From Bradyrhizobium sp. RP6 (lineage in GTDB: Bacteria; Pseudomonadota; Alphaproteobacteria; Rhizobiales; Xanthobacteraceae): a stretch of DNA of 64,000 nt. Both the position numbers and the translations under genes were made by a program. Positions 22,676 to 27,803 of this stretch are shown one piece after another; position 1 is the stretch's first letter; every line of letters begins with the position of its first letter. Under the pieces are notes generated by a model. That model was not told where the DNA came from. It saw only the letters and a list, made by a program, of their open reading frames with translations, and did not search any database. The stretch covers positions 682,001 to 746,000 of the forward strand of contig NZ_RQIT01000002.1 of the NCBI RefSeq assembly GCF_003837805.1, given 5' to 3'.

Positions 22676-23524
22676 TCACCGCGCCGGGAAACTGAGCGCG
22701 TAGTCGCGGCCATCCATTCCCGCGGGCGGGGCGAACGGGAAGCGCAGGCTCTGGTCGAGGAAGTCATGGCTGTGCACGACGAGGTTCTCGTCGTCGATCA
22801 GCACGACGCCGTAGGCCGGCGGCTCGTGGCTGGCAAGGTGCGGCGCGCTCTGGTCGAGCTCGAACCAGACCTGATGGTTGGTGCCGCGCAGCGTCGAGAA
22901 CGGGATCTTACCGTAGCTGCCGAAGATCGGCCGGTGCACATGGCCGAAGAAGAGATGGCGGATGCGCGCGCGATAGGGCGCGATCACCTCGGCAAATTCC
23001 GCGCTCTGCTTCAGCCCGATCTCGTCCATCGCATGCACGCCGACCGGGAAGGGCGGATGGTGCATGAATACGACGAGCGGCATGTCCGCGGGCGCAGCCG
23101 CAAGCGTGCTCGCCAGCCAGCCGAGGCGCTTAGCGCACATCTCGCCGGCATGGCTGGTCTCGTCCAGCGTGTCGAGGAAGACGAACAGGCCGTGCTCGGT
23201 GGTGCGCGTGCCCTGCACGAAGCCGTTCGAATCGCGCGGCGCGGCCTTCAGCGCATCGAGGCAGGTGACGCGCTTGTCGTGATTGCCGACCATCGCGATG
23301 TAGGGAATTTTCAGCGCCGCCATCGCCTCGGCGAAATTGGCGTAGGATTCAGCCTCGCCCCAATGCGTGAGATCGCCTGTCACCACCGCGAAGGCGGCGT
23401 CGGATTGATGCTGGTTGATGTCGGCAATCGCAGCGTCCAGCCGGGCCCGCGGGTCGAGGCCATAAAGCGTCGAACCGGGGTTCGCGAGATGCGTGTCGGT
23501 GATGTGGATGAATTTGAAGGGCAT
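22676..23524 (-). CDS. calcineurin-like phosphodiesterase (GpdQ/cAMP phosphodiesterase class III group)
   Basis: 282 residues. All metal-binding motifs of the class III cyclic-nucleotide/GpdQ family are seen: DTHL at the N terminus, GDLTHWG, GNHDKR, the HHPPFPVG stretch and GHVHRP. It is cytoplasmic, with no signal peptide. It is the first gene of the operon feeding the UgpA-, UgpE- and UgpB-like genes, so a role in cleaving imported glycerophosphodiesters to glycerol-3-phosphate is a good inference from the context. cAMP hydrolysis is the other possibility. Confidence 0.85.
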   Translation of the reverse strand: MPFKFIHITDTHLANPGSTLYGLDPRARLDAAIADINQHQSDAAFAVVTGDLTHWGEAESYANFAEAMAALKIPYIAMVGNHDKRVTCLDALKAAPRDSNGFVQGTRTTEHGLFVFLDTLDETSHAGEMCAKRLGWLASTLAAAPADMPLVVFMHHPPFPVGVHAMDEIGLKQSAEFAEVIAPYRARIRHLFFGHVHRPIFGSYGKIPFSTLRGTNHQVWFELDQSAPHLASHEPPAYGVVLIDDENLVVHSHDFLDQSLRFPFAPPAGMDGRDYALSFPAR

Positions 23525-23647
23525 GGCGCGCTATGTCGGGACCGTTAGAGGATGGACGCCTCCGGCAAGACGACCCTGCCAGCCCATTAGAGTGCGTATG
23601 TTTCAGTTTGATAACAGCGGTTCCCCATTCCACAGGCGGCCGACGTC

Positions 23648-23679
23648 GTAGGGTGGATTAGCCGAAGGCGTAATCCACC
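23648..23679. repeat. REP palindrome upstream of the RAYT gene
   Basis: A 32-base element with palindromic core GGTGGATTA-GCCGAAGGCG-TAATCCACC, preceded by GTAG. An exact reverse-complement copy lies on the other side of the transposase gene at 24323-24354. The GTAG tetranucleotide beside the hairpin is characteristic of REP sequences mobilised by RAYT proteins. Confidence 0.85.
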
Positions 23680-23716
23680 TCTGTGTGCCAACGTCAAGTT
23701 GTGCTATTGAGTGCTC

Positions 23717-24250
23717 ATGTCCAACTATCGCCGCGCATTTGTTCCGGGGGGATGCTGGTTCTTCACGGTGAATTTGCTCAACCGACGCCAAGCGCTCTTG
23801 ACGGACAAGATCGAAATCCTACGCGGAGCGGTGGCCGCAACGCGCCAAAGCCATCCATTCGAGATCGATGCTTTTGTGGTCTTGCCGGATCATCTGCACG
23901 CGATCTGGAAACTTCCAAAGGGTGACGCCAATTTTTCAGCCCGTTGGCGGTTGATCAAGACACGTTTTGCAAAAGCACTGCCGGCGAACGAGCGGCTGAG
24001 CGCAGTCCGTGCCGCACGCAACGAACGCGGCATCTGGCAGCGCCGATTTTGGGAGCATCTCATCCGCGATGAGGCCGATTACGCACGCCACGTCGAGTAT
24101 TGTTACTACAATCCCGTCAAGCACGGTCACGTCTCGAAGGTTTGTGACTGGCCTTACTCGTCCTTTCATCGCGATGTCCGCGCGGGATTGTTTCCGGAGG
24201 ATTGGGGCGGAGACAACAAGGTCGTCGGTGAGTTTGGTGAGCGGGTGTGA
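23717..24250 (+). CDS. REP-associated tyrosine transposase (RAYT, Y1 family)
   Basis: About 177 residues from the ATG at 23717. The single-stranded DNA endonuclease fold of the Y1/IS200-like group is shown by YRRAFVPGGCWFFTVNLL at the start, the metal-binding histidine pair in VLPDHLHAIW, and the catalytic tyrosine in EYCYYNPVKHGH with SSFHRDVRAG after it. RAYTs are domesticated single-copy transposases that move or maintain REP palindromes. Here the gene is bracketed by REPs in opposite orientation with only the gene between them. No second transposon gene is present. Confidence 0.93.
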   Translation: MSNYRRAFVPGGCWFFTVNLLNRRQALLTDKIEILRGAVAATRQSHPFEIDAFVVLPDHLHAIWKLPKGDANFSARWRLIKTRFAKALPANERLSAVRAARNERGIWQRRFWEHLIRDEADYARHVEYCYYNPVKHGHVSKVCDWPYSSFHRDVRAGLFPEDWGGDNKVVGEFGERV

Positions 24251-24265
24251 TGGCTGGGTTGGCCT

Positions 24266-24296
24266 GTAGGATGGATTAGCGAAGCGTAATCTACCT
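24266..24296. repeat. degenerate REP copy
   Basis: A diverged REP (GTAGGATGGATTAGCGAAGCG, followed by TAATCTACC) in the same orientation as the copy at 23648. It faces the inverted copy at 24323 about 28 bases away, so the two together form a REPIN-like long hairpin downstream of the transposase. Confidence 0.75.
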
Positions 24297-24322
24297 CTTT
24301 ACCTTCGGTCGTTGAGAGAGGT

Positions 24323-24354
24323 GGTGGATTACGCCTTCGGCTAATCCACCCTAC
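24323..24354. repeat. REP palindrome downstream of the RAYT gene, inverted
   Basis: Exact reverse complement of the 32-base REP at 23648-23679, ending in CTAC. It lies 16 bases before the selO stop codon and may also help end transcripts from both sides. Confidence 0.85.
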
Positions 24355-24369
24355 GCACCACGGTTGTGC

Positions 24370-25842
24370 CTACGTCCCGCAGAACGTCTGCAGGACCCGC
24401 TGGTCCGGCAGCGGCGGATCGGCATAGGCGGCGTAGTCCGGCTGATCCTCGAACGGCTTCGCCAGCACCTTCACCAATTCCTCGAACGGCTCGTAATTGT
24501 CGTCGTTCACCGCGGCCCGGATCACGGCTTCGACGCGGTGGTTGCGCGGGATGAACATCGGATTGACGGAGTGCATGGCGGCTTGCCGTTCGACGGCGCT
24601 TTGCGGCTCCAGCGCGAGGCGCGCGCGCCAGCGGCCGGCCCATTCGTCGAACGCGGCGGGCTCCATGAATTGCGCGCGCACGTCCGCGCGGTCATCGGCC
24701 GCGGCGTCACCCAGCTTGCGGAAGGTGAGGGTGAAGTCGGCCTGGTTCTTCGCCATCGCATCCAGCAGGTCCTGGATCAGCGCATCGTCCCCGTCGCGCT
24801 CCGTGAACAGGCCGACCTTGCTGCGCAGGCCGACCTGATAGGCCGCGCTGAACTGGTCGGAGAAGGCGCCGAGAATGTCCTGGGCCTCCGCGACCGCCTT
24901 CTCCTGCTCGTCGGAGAACAGCGGCAGCAGGCATTCGGCGAGGCGCGTCAGATTCCACAAGCCGATGCGCGGCTGGTTGGCGTAGGCGTAACGGCCCATC
25001 TCGTCGATCGAGGAGAAGACCTGCGCGGGGTTGTAGGCGTCCATGAAGGCGCAGGGGCCGTAATCGATGGTCTCGCCTGATATCGACGTGTTGTCGGTGT
25101 TCATCACGCCGTGGATGAAGCCGACCAGGAGCCAGCGCGCCACGAGCTCGGCCTGGCGCGCGACAACGCTCGCGAGCAAGTCGTGATAGGGCCGCTTCGA
25201 TTGAAGCAGGTCCGGATAGTGGCGGGTGATGACATGGTCGGCGAGCCGCCGAATGGCCTCCGTGTCGCGGCGGACGGCGAAGAACTGGAAGGTGCCGACG
25301 CGGATATGGCTGGAGGCGACGCGGGTCAGCACCGCGCCGGGCAGCGCCGTCTCGCGGATCACGTGCTCGCCGGTGACGACCGCGGCGAGCGAGCGCGTGG
25401 TCGGGATGCCGAGCGCGTACATCGCCTCGCTGACGATGTATTCGCGCAGGACCGGCCCGAGCGCGGCACGGCCGTCGCCGCGGCGGGAGAACGGGGTGGG
25501 GCCCGAGCCCTTGAGCTGGATGTCGCGACGGACACCGCCGCTGTCGATCACCTCGCCGAGCAGGATGGCGCGGCCGTCGCCGAGCTGGGGTACGAACTGC
25601 CCGAACTGGTGGCCGGCATAGGCCATGGCAATGGGGTCGGCTCCGGCGGGAACCGTCTTGCCGGCCAGGATCTCGGCACCCTCAGGGGTCTCCAGGAGGT
25701 CTGGATCGAGCCCGAGCTGGACCGCCAACGGCCGGTTCAGCTTGATCAGCCCGGGCGCAGCCACGGGGGTCGGCGCGACGCGGGCGAAGAAGCTGTCCGG
25801 CAGCGCCGAATAGGAGTTCTGGAAGGGGAAATGCACCGTCAT
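24370..25842 (-). CDS. selO: SelO-type protein AMPylase (YdiU/UPF0061)
   Basis: About 490 residues from the ATG at 25842 (MTVHFPFQNSYSALP), the usual family start. Pseudokinase-like motifs are present: LGDGRAILLGEV, the Lys-containing QLKGSGPTPFSRRGDGRAAL, REYIVSEAMYALGIPTTRSL, and the metal site GVMNTDNTSISGETIDYGPC. SelO proteins transfer AMP to protein Ser/Thr/Tyr and act in redox homeostasis. Bacterial members lacking the C-terminal selenocysteine end near CGT, as here (QTFCGT). It converges on the RAYT gene and diverges from aspS. Confidence 0.93.
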   Translation of the reverse strand: MTVHFPFQNSYSALPDSFFARVAPTPVAAPGLIKLNRPLAVQLGLDPDLLETPEGAEILAGKTVPAGADPIAMAYAGHQFGQFVPQLGDGRAILLGEVIDSGGVRRDIQLKGSGPTPFSRRGDGRAALGPVLREYIVSEAMYALGIPTTRSLAAVVTGEHVIRETALPGAVLTRVASSHIRVGTFQFFAVRRDTEAIRRLADHVITRHYPDLLQSKRPYHDLLASVVARQAELVARWLLVGFIHGVMNTDNTSISGETIDYGPCAFMDAYNPAQVFSSIDEMGRYAYANQPRIGLWNLTRLAECLLPLFSDEQEKAVAEAQDILGAFSDQFSAAYQVGLRSKVGLFTERDGDDALIQDLLDAMAKNQADFTLTFRKLGDAAADDRADVRAQFMEPAAFDEWAGRWRARLALEPQSAVERQAAMHSVNPMFIPRNHRVEAVIRAAVNDDNYEPFEELVKVLAKPFEDQPDYAAYADPPLPDQRVLQTFCGT

Positions 25843-26030
25843 AGGCTCAAGATAGGGCTGGAACGCCTGATGGCAAAGGCTCGGCCCCTGAAAATGGGCA
25901 CTTCCGGCCCAAAACAGGGCGTTCCCTTGGTTGCCGCCTTGGTCCTCCCGGGGTAAACCCTGCCGCAATCTCGGACCGGCCGTGACAGGCCGTTCGATTC
26001 GCATCCTCCGACATTGATTTTGGGACGACC

Positions 26031-27803
26031 ATGCATCGCTACCGGTCACATACATGCGGCGCGCTCCGCGAGAGCAACATCGGCGAGACGGTCCGCCTGT
26101 CAGGCTGGGTCCATCGCGTTCGCGATCATGGCGGCGTGCTGTTCATCGACCTGCGCGACCATTACGGTCTGACCCAGTGCGTGGTCGACCCGGACTCGCC
26201 GGCGTTCTCGCTGGCCGAGAAGCTGCGCTCGGAATTCGTGGTGCGGATGGACGGCAAGGCCCGCCGCCGCCCCGAGGGCACCGACAACGACGATCTGCCG
26301 ACCGGCAAGGTCGAGGTCTATATCAGCGAGATCGAGGTGCTGGGCCCGGCCGGCGATCTGCCGCTGCCGGTGTTCGGCGACCAGGAATATCCCGAAGACA
26401 TCCGCTTGAAGTACCGCTTCCTCGACCTGCGTCGCGAGAAGCTGCACCAGAACATCATGACGCGCGTCGAGATCATCAAGTCGATGCGCCGGCGCATGGA
26501 GGGGCAGGGCTTCTTCGAGTTCAACACGCCGATCCTGACCGCATCCTCGCCGGAAGGCGCGCGCGACTTCCTGGTGCCCTCGCGCATCCATCCGGGAAAA
26601 TTCTACGCGCTGCCGCAGGCGCCGCAGCAGTACAAGCAGCTGCTGATGATGTCGGGCTTCGACCGCTACTTCCAGATCGCGCCCTGTTTCCGCGACGAGG
26701 ACCCGCGCGCCGACCGTCTGCCGGGCGAGTTCTACCAGCTCGACGTCGAGATGAGTTTTGTCACCCAGGAAGACGTGTTCGCGGCGATGGAACCTGTCAT
26801 CACCGGTGTGTTCGAAGAGTTCGCGAAGGGCAAGCCGGTCACGAAGGGCTGGCGGCGGATTCCGTTCGCGGAAGCCTTGCGCAAATACGGCAGCGACAAG
26901 CCGGACCTGCGCAACCCCATCGAGATGCAGGACGTCTCCGAGCATTTCCGCGGCTCCGGCTTCAAGGTCTTTGCGCGCATGCTCGAAGACCCCAAGAACC
27001 AGGTCTGGGCGATCCCGGCACCGGGCGGCGGCAGCCGCGCGTTCTGCGACCGCATGAATTCGTGGGCGCAGGGCGAAGGCCAGCCCGGCCTCGGCTACAT
27101 CATGTGGCGCGAGGGCGGCGAGGGCGCAGGCCCGCTCGCGAACAACATCGGGCCTGAGCGCACCGCCGCGATCCGCGCACAGCTCGGCCTCAAGGAAGGC
27201 GATGCCGCTTTCTTCGTCGCCGGCGATCCCGACAAGTTCTGGAAGTTCTCAGGCCTGGCCCGCAACAAGGTCGGCGAGGAATTGAACCTCACCGACAAGG
27301 AGCGGTTCGAGCTCGCCTGGATCGTGGACTTCCCGATGTACGAGTACAACGAGGACGACAAGAAGGTCGACTTCTCGCACAACCCGTTCTCGATGCCGCA
27401 GGGCGGCCTCGAGGCCCTGAAGGGCCAGGATCCGCTGACCATCAAGGCGTTCCAGTACGACATCACCTGCAACGGCTACGAGATCGCCTCCGGCGGCATC
27501 CGCAACCACGTGCCGGAGGCGATGGTGAAGGCGTTCGAGATCGCAGGTTACGGCGAGCAGGAAGTGGTCGAGCGTTTCGGCGGCATGTACCGCGCCTTCC
27601 AGTACGGCGCCCCTCCGCATGGCGGCATGGCCGCGGGTGTCGACCGCATCGTGATGCTGCTCTGTGGCACCACGAACTTGCGCGAAATCTCGCTATTCCC
27701 GATGAACCAGCAAGCCATGGACCTCCTGATGGGCGCGCCCTCGGAAGCCACGACGAAGCAGCTCCGCGAACTGCATGTGCGGGTGAACCTGCCGCAGAAG
27801 TGA
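26031..27803 (+). CDS. aspS: aspartyl-tRNA synthetase, probably non-discriminating (Asp/Asn)
   Basis: 590-residue class II synthetase of the bacterial type: N-terminal anticodon OB fold, motif 2 ([20 protein letters not shown]), large insertion domain and motif 3 ([14 protein letters not shown]). In the OB fold it carries RDHGG with His at the position called H31 in Pseudomonas and a Gly in the MDGK loop, residues linked to relaxed specificity for tRNA-Asn; discriminating enzymes have RDLG there. That implies Asn-tRNA formation through GatCAB, which is inference. It starts 188 bases from the divergent selO. Confidence 0.95.

Follow-up and report, generated by a model that had tools for sequence, protein, structure and literature searches.

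Inverted REPs flanking RAYT genes, a single REP class per RAYT, agreement between RAYT and REP trees, the reliance of REP numbers on a cognate RAYT, inheritance by vertical descent and RAYT loss are all in print (available text of PMC2817692, PMC3686654, PMC6006769, PMC8049555 and PMC3733652). The REPtron of E. coli, which encodes the group 2 RAYT TnpAREP (PDB 4er8; PMC8266576, available text), belongs to the same protein family as the gene described here and shares with it the HUH motif and tyrosine, the GTAG tag, a bulged REP and REP doublets beside the gene. REPINs number 69-235 per E. coli genome according to the available text of PMC8049555. In Bradyrhizobium, GTAG palindromes and their dimers have already been described as GTAG-3 and GTAG-14, in a survey that took in three strains of the genus and placed REPtrons in most species with GTAG repeats (PMC3733652, available text). 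In Pseudomonas and Stenotrophomonas, taxa other than that studied here, REPs need their cognate RAYT to be highly abundant, the trees of RAYTs and REPs are congruent, and both RAYT loss and a change of flanking REP class are described (PMC3686654 and PMC2817692, available text). Since these features are known, the locus reported here joins the known REPtrons. As a REPtron it is ordinary, and its worth is comparative, lying in the different states of one site and in a simple residue-to-base hypothesis.

The window, a 64-kb stretch (64,000 nucleotides) of the genome of the soil bacterium Bradyrhizobium sp. RP6, contains a RAYT (TnpAREP) gene of 177 aa on the forward strand at 23717..24250. The product matches the curated family model NF047646 with 198.9 bits (cut-off 80), and PDB 4er8, the solved E. 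coli TnpAREP, matches its residues 1-168 with an E value of 5e-57. The score against Pfam Y1_Tnp, 17.9, is below that model's cut-off of 23. The HUH motif, read from the ORF, is H59-L60-H61 (codons 23891..23899, +), and alignment to E. coli Y115 identifies Y128 (codon 24098..24100, +) as the catalytic tyrosine, a role taken from the family literature. In the alignment this residue has the context Y128-C-Y-Y-N132-P, which is the Y---NP of class 2 under the rule given in the available text of PMC6006769. An earlier note, made from the sequence alone, had reported a Y1-type tyrosine transposase with its catalytic motifs and nothing else between the outer REPs; both statements are borne out, the RAYT ORF being the sole family-supported gene in that interval. 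Differences from E. coli TnpAREP include 13 additional residues before the catalytic region, a REP with a different stem, and T82 at the position aligned with K82, which contacts the bulge in E. coli.

The gene lies between two REPs of type T1, which were defined by inverted-repeat comparison, shuffling and folding. The upstream REP (23648..23679, +) is made up of GTAG and a 9-bp stem, a bulged G and a 3-bp upper stem, and the downstream REP (24323..24354, -) is its exact reverse complement. The identity of the two 32-base repeats recorded in the earlier note was found to extend to arms of 33 nt that are 100% complementary (23647-23679 and 24323-24355). When up to 3 mismatches are tolerated, the 64-kb window contains two copies of the 32-mer, and none of 100 shuffles contains one. 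The predicted fold of the 32 nt has a z score of -5.5 and leaves the G unpaired within the stem, as in Group 2 REPs. A third REP (24266..24295, +), located by repeat comparison, pattern matching and folding, is a decayed REP of the short-loop type that differs from the pattern by 2 changes, and is a direct repeat of the upstream REP at a spacing of 618 bp. By itself it folds poorly (z -0.76). It nevertheless forms the left arm of a REPIN of two inverted REPs, the right arm of which is the downstream REP, and despite its decay the doublet (24266-24354) is predicted to fold into one long hairpin (z -7.4). The 27-nt spacer (24296..24322) was read from the sequence, and other doublets are spaced alike; in genome G134, 12 of the 24 listed REPs make six doublets with spacers of 23-27 nt. 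The earlier note was right that the third copy is present and pairs with 24323-24354 in a REPIN-like doublet, and only its extent changes, to 30 nt rather than 31.

Each sequence feature that could be tested, namely the gene between two GTAG REPs in inverted orientation, its RAYT family membership, the dispersed REP and the REPIN, supports the REPtron arrangement put forward by that note. The locus is very probably a REPtron that consists of a group-2-like RAYT together with a REP class of its own. Such RAYTs are single-strand DNA nuclease/ligases of the HUH-Y1 family, and this one has a single copy for its clade and is passed on vertically at a fixed site. By analogy with E. coli TnpAREP, the protein would bind the folded single-stranded REP through GTAG, the lower stem and the bulge, and would cut and rejoin DNA next to the REP. 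REPINs would thereby spread as non-autonomous elements at a low rate while the gene stays put. On the same analogy, the RAYT may be active, may mobilise its REPs and may confer some benefit on the host.

The REP is dispersed at low copy number in the window's genome (7.7 Mb, 85 contigs). A relaxed pattern gave 10 matches, 3 of them at the RAYT locus, and the remainder represent five REPs elsewhere: a head-to-head doublet on contig C18, a single copy on C85 and two double-tagged hairpins, each matched on both strands. The strict T1 pattern found 4 copies in this strain, 2 at the RAYT locus, compared with up to 28 in relatives. The earlier note had made its reading depend on copies elsewhere in the genome, which are present, and had looked to inverted doublets, which were found both on C18 and in G134. 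The same genome has a second RAYT (G000 C16:1282-1710, locus L011), which is accompanied by T3 REPs. A divergent RAYT-like gene at C85:20440-20838 (L013) scored 69 bits, below the cut-off, and a scan gave no T1- or T3-like REP start beside it.

At least 97 of 146 genomes of the genus have a RAYT that scores over the cut-off. The analysis covered 142 RAYT loci, 140 among the matches listed plus L011 and L012. By class patterns that we defined, 140 of the 142 loci have nearby a GTAG REP that falls into one of five classes (two of these loci are mixed), and at 103 loci REPs of one class stand inverted on either side. Of 80 loci among the matches listed by a scan of the genome collection, 42 had flanking REPs that agreed over the first ten bases. 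The classes T1-T5 follow a quick tree of the 136 RAYTs of at least 150 aa, needing 6 changes where shuffled classes need 80.5 on average, and in the same tree the T1 RAYTs group as a single clade, with support 97, that is nested within T2. The presence of five RAYT clades and five REP classes in a single genus is of comparative value. A further class, T1' (GGGTTA), was beside none of the 142 RAYT loci in the flanks typed, and is perhaps an older REP population of the T1 RAYT.

Strict counts in the 146 genomes, which cover four classes, gave totals of 435 T1, 1454 T1', 493 T2 and 2881 T3 REPs. T1 RAYTs, remnants included, were first counted in 24 of the 146. With genomes treated as independent, T1 REPs averaged 10.8 in these 24 and 1.5 in the others (p 2e-13) and T1' REPs 25.5 and 6.9 (p 1e-10), T2 REPs were weakly raised (p 0.04), and T3 REPs showed no excess (p 0.65). 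Across the same 146 genomes, and with shared ancestry ignored, T2 RAYTs accompany T2 REPs (p 6e-8) and T3 RAYTs accompany T3 REPs (p 7e-4); classes also cross over, in that T1' REPs go with RAYTs of T2 (p 4e-4), T3 (p 0.01) and T4 (p 7e-3), T1 REPs with T2 RAYTs (p 0.02), and T3 REPs with T4 RAYTs (p 2e-3). Two more broken copies (G092 and G105) later raised the number of T1-RAYT genomes to 26 of 146. The orthologous neighbour gene is present in 71 genomes, of which 26 have a T1 RAYT and 45 do not. Within this set, and after subtraction of 3 locus copies, T1 REPs were still raised with the RAYT (p 1.6e-4), as were T1' (p 4e-8) and T2 (p 0.005), and T3 REPs were not (p 0.45), kinship being ignored in each case. 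The earlier note had named equal abundance in genomes without a RAYT as evidence against its reading; enrichment was seen instead, in the full set and in the neighbour-matched one. It had also asked whether strains without the RAYT lack the REPs; the matching class is commoner with the RAYT, but REPs persist in many genomes without a detected RAYT of this kind, one being G101, which has 8 T1 and 77 T1' copies and no RAYT match found. Ten genomes without a detected T1 RAYT carry at least 5 T1 REPs. The number of T1 REPs did not differ between genomes with intact and broken T1 RAYTs (p 0.93).

The T1 RAYT occupies one site. At the stricter clustering setting, 20 of 22 left flanks and 21 of 22 right flanks of T1 loci group together, and each T1-level match is in a different genome. 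In the window the RAYT is flanked by what we take to be a metallophosphoesterase-like gene (22676-23524) and a SelO-like gene (24370-26055), and the REPIN stands between the RAYT and SelO-like genes, which converge. T5 RAYTs, too, share a single site in most cases (25 of 30 left and 24 of 30 right flanks). A relative of Y1-type transposases with perfect inverted ends might instead be an ordinary IS200-like insertion sequence that moves as a unit bounded by the two REPs, and T2, T3 and T4 RAYTs do occupy several different sites. The synteny of the T1 RAYT at a single orthologous site in the genus argues against a mobile insertion sequence, and the IS200 model NF033573 gave 12.8 bits against a threshold of 55; this explanation is extremely improbable and was rejected. 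It is unlikely, too, that the main role of the REPs is to terminate transcription or stabilise mRNA between the converging genes, with the RAYT no longer acting on them. The location of the REPIN, its decayed left arm and the small REP family of the window's genome would all suit such a role, as would the loss of integrity in 8 of 26 T1 RAYTs, judged by us to be broken or truncated, the other 18 being intact. Borderline calls in this division are G111, labelled broken, which loses only its last residues, and G083, labelled intact, which is 168 aa. Intact T1 RAYTs, however, keep T1 REPs on their flanks and have a median dN/dS of 0.076 (17 sequences) compared with 0.123 for the neighbour gene (16 sequences), values that are rough at the high mean dS of 0.96. 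Judged from these alignments, the T1 RAYT is under purifying selection. G092, a candidate for a different RAYT at the T1 site, has in its DNA a broken T1 RAYT with T1 REPs.

The REPtron site is found with its RAYT intact, broken or absent. Sixty neighbour loci from 59 genomes were compared, one without the neighbour gene and nine without a SelO match in reach. The neighbours are no more than 260 bp apart in 24 genomes, against 849 bp. G055 and G129 (L236 and L237) have a REPIN where relatives have the RAYT unit, that of G055 with a longer loop, and the missing DNA, 598 and 621 bp, comes close to the 618 bp from the direct REP at 23648 to the one at 24266, which suggests deletion between direct REPs in these two genomes. 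Homologous and enzyme-made deletion give indistinguishable outcomes here. In the open-licence literature on RAYTs and REPs, as far as its text was available, no earlier description of a REPIN left at a RAYT site was found. G062 and G142 have longer RAYT-free sites in which a doublet is present. Seven of the 24 short RAYT-free sites have a REP within five edits and 17 have none; some of the 17 have the look of a decayed REP by eye. A tree of SelO, a single gene, from 60 genomes, displayed without support values, places G055 as sister to the window's genome and shows mixed RAYT states. Our reading of the RAYT-free sites overall is repeated loss. A minor but real possibility is that many of them reflect ancestral absence or recombinational exchange, and that at some a RAYT inserted beside an existing REPIN. 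The 17 sites without a REP are consistent with this, as is the REP-free appearance of G007, G017 and G027 by eye; the mixed states in the tree could also come from recombination, and the REPINs of G055 and G129 could predate the RAYT. Repeated loss is favoured by the sister position of G055, by the sizes of the two deficits, and by the broken or truncated copies at the site in G092, G105 and G106, which represent loss in progress.

Covariation between RAYT residues and REP bases was scanned over about 177 columns and six REP positions in 130 distinct two-sided RAYT/REP pairs, drawn from 208 candidates in the genus and other taxa, so that significance in the training set is by itself modest. 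For REP position 6 the highest z was that of residue 2, a score that traits simulated on the tree reached in 3 of 19998 cases at the matched rate and 42 of 19508 at a slower rate. The top column for REP position 11 was residue 78 (24 of 19998 and 397 of 19727, respectively). Residue 2 with position 7 alone was unconvincing once the tree was taken into account (537 of 19837 at the matched rate), positions 9 and 10 were set aside with smallest per-column p values of 0.012 and 0.025 among the approximately 177 columns, and position 5 was uninformative because it changes once on the tree. A specificity code, plausible at present rather than probable, would have the residue after Met1 select REP stem pairs 6-7 (Thr with A6T7, Val with C6C7, Pro with G6, and Ser in most cases with G6T7); for base 11, helix residue 78 may matter. 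In the E. coli REP, sequence-specific contacts are made at T11 and G32, and mutating them is harmful (PMC8266576, available text); by our inference, G32 pairs with position 7. If the code is true, a switch of REP class, for example from T2 to T1, would go along with a change of residue 2 (in most cases Pro2 to Ser2, with C7 to T7). The way in which RAYTs and REPs change partners bears on the persistence of these domesticated transposases and their repeats. No residue-2 rule was found in the open-licence papers on RAYTs and REPs, nor any residue-to-base rule in PMC3686654 and PMC2817692, as far as their text was available.

The residue-2 rule was fixed before the held-out loci were obtained, and the scoring script was written after they had been viewed. 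Of these 75 loci, one (L345) had no match, and a REP-like hairpin was present in 31. Rows with at least 90% identity to the training set, no N-terminal motif, or a residue 2 outside P/S/T/V were left unscored, and for Pro2 both C7 and T7 were scored as correct. Among the scored pairs, L310 comes from the window's genus and is 84% identical to training. Below 90% identity, and with shuffles that ignore relatedness, the rule was correct for 7 of 9 two-sided pairs (shuffle mean 3.1, p 0.006) and for 13 of 19 when one-sided REPs were included (mean 6.7, p 1e-4). The misses include Ser2 with C6C7 (L319 and L323) and Pro2 with T6 (L305 and L306). Residue 78 with base 11, strong in training, gave a weak result here under shuffles of the same kind, being correct for 8 of 12 two-sided pairs (p 0.23) and for 17 of 24 when all were counted (p 0.03). 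These comparisons hint that residue 2 tracks REP bases 6-7, a relationship that is new and unproven. Some held-out RAYTs have a short start (M-x-YRR), one residue shorter; L326 is one of these and has no REP, and the four with a REP (L303, L316, L325 and L368) all have T6, a pattern noticed afterwards.
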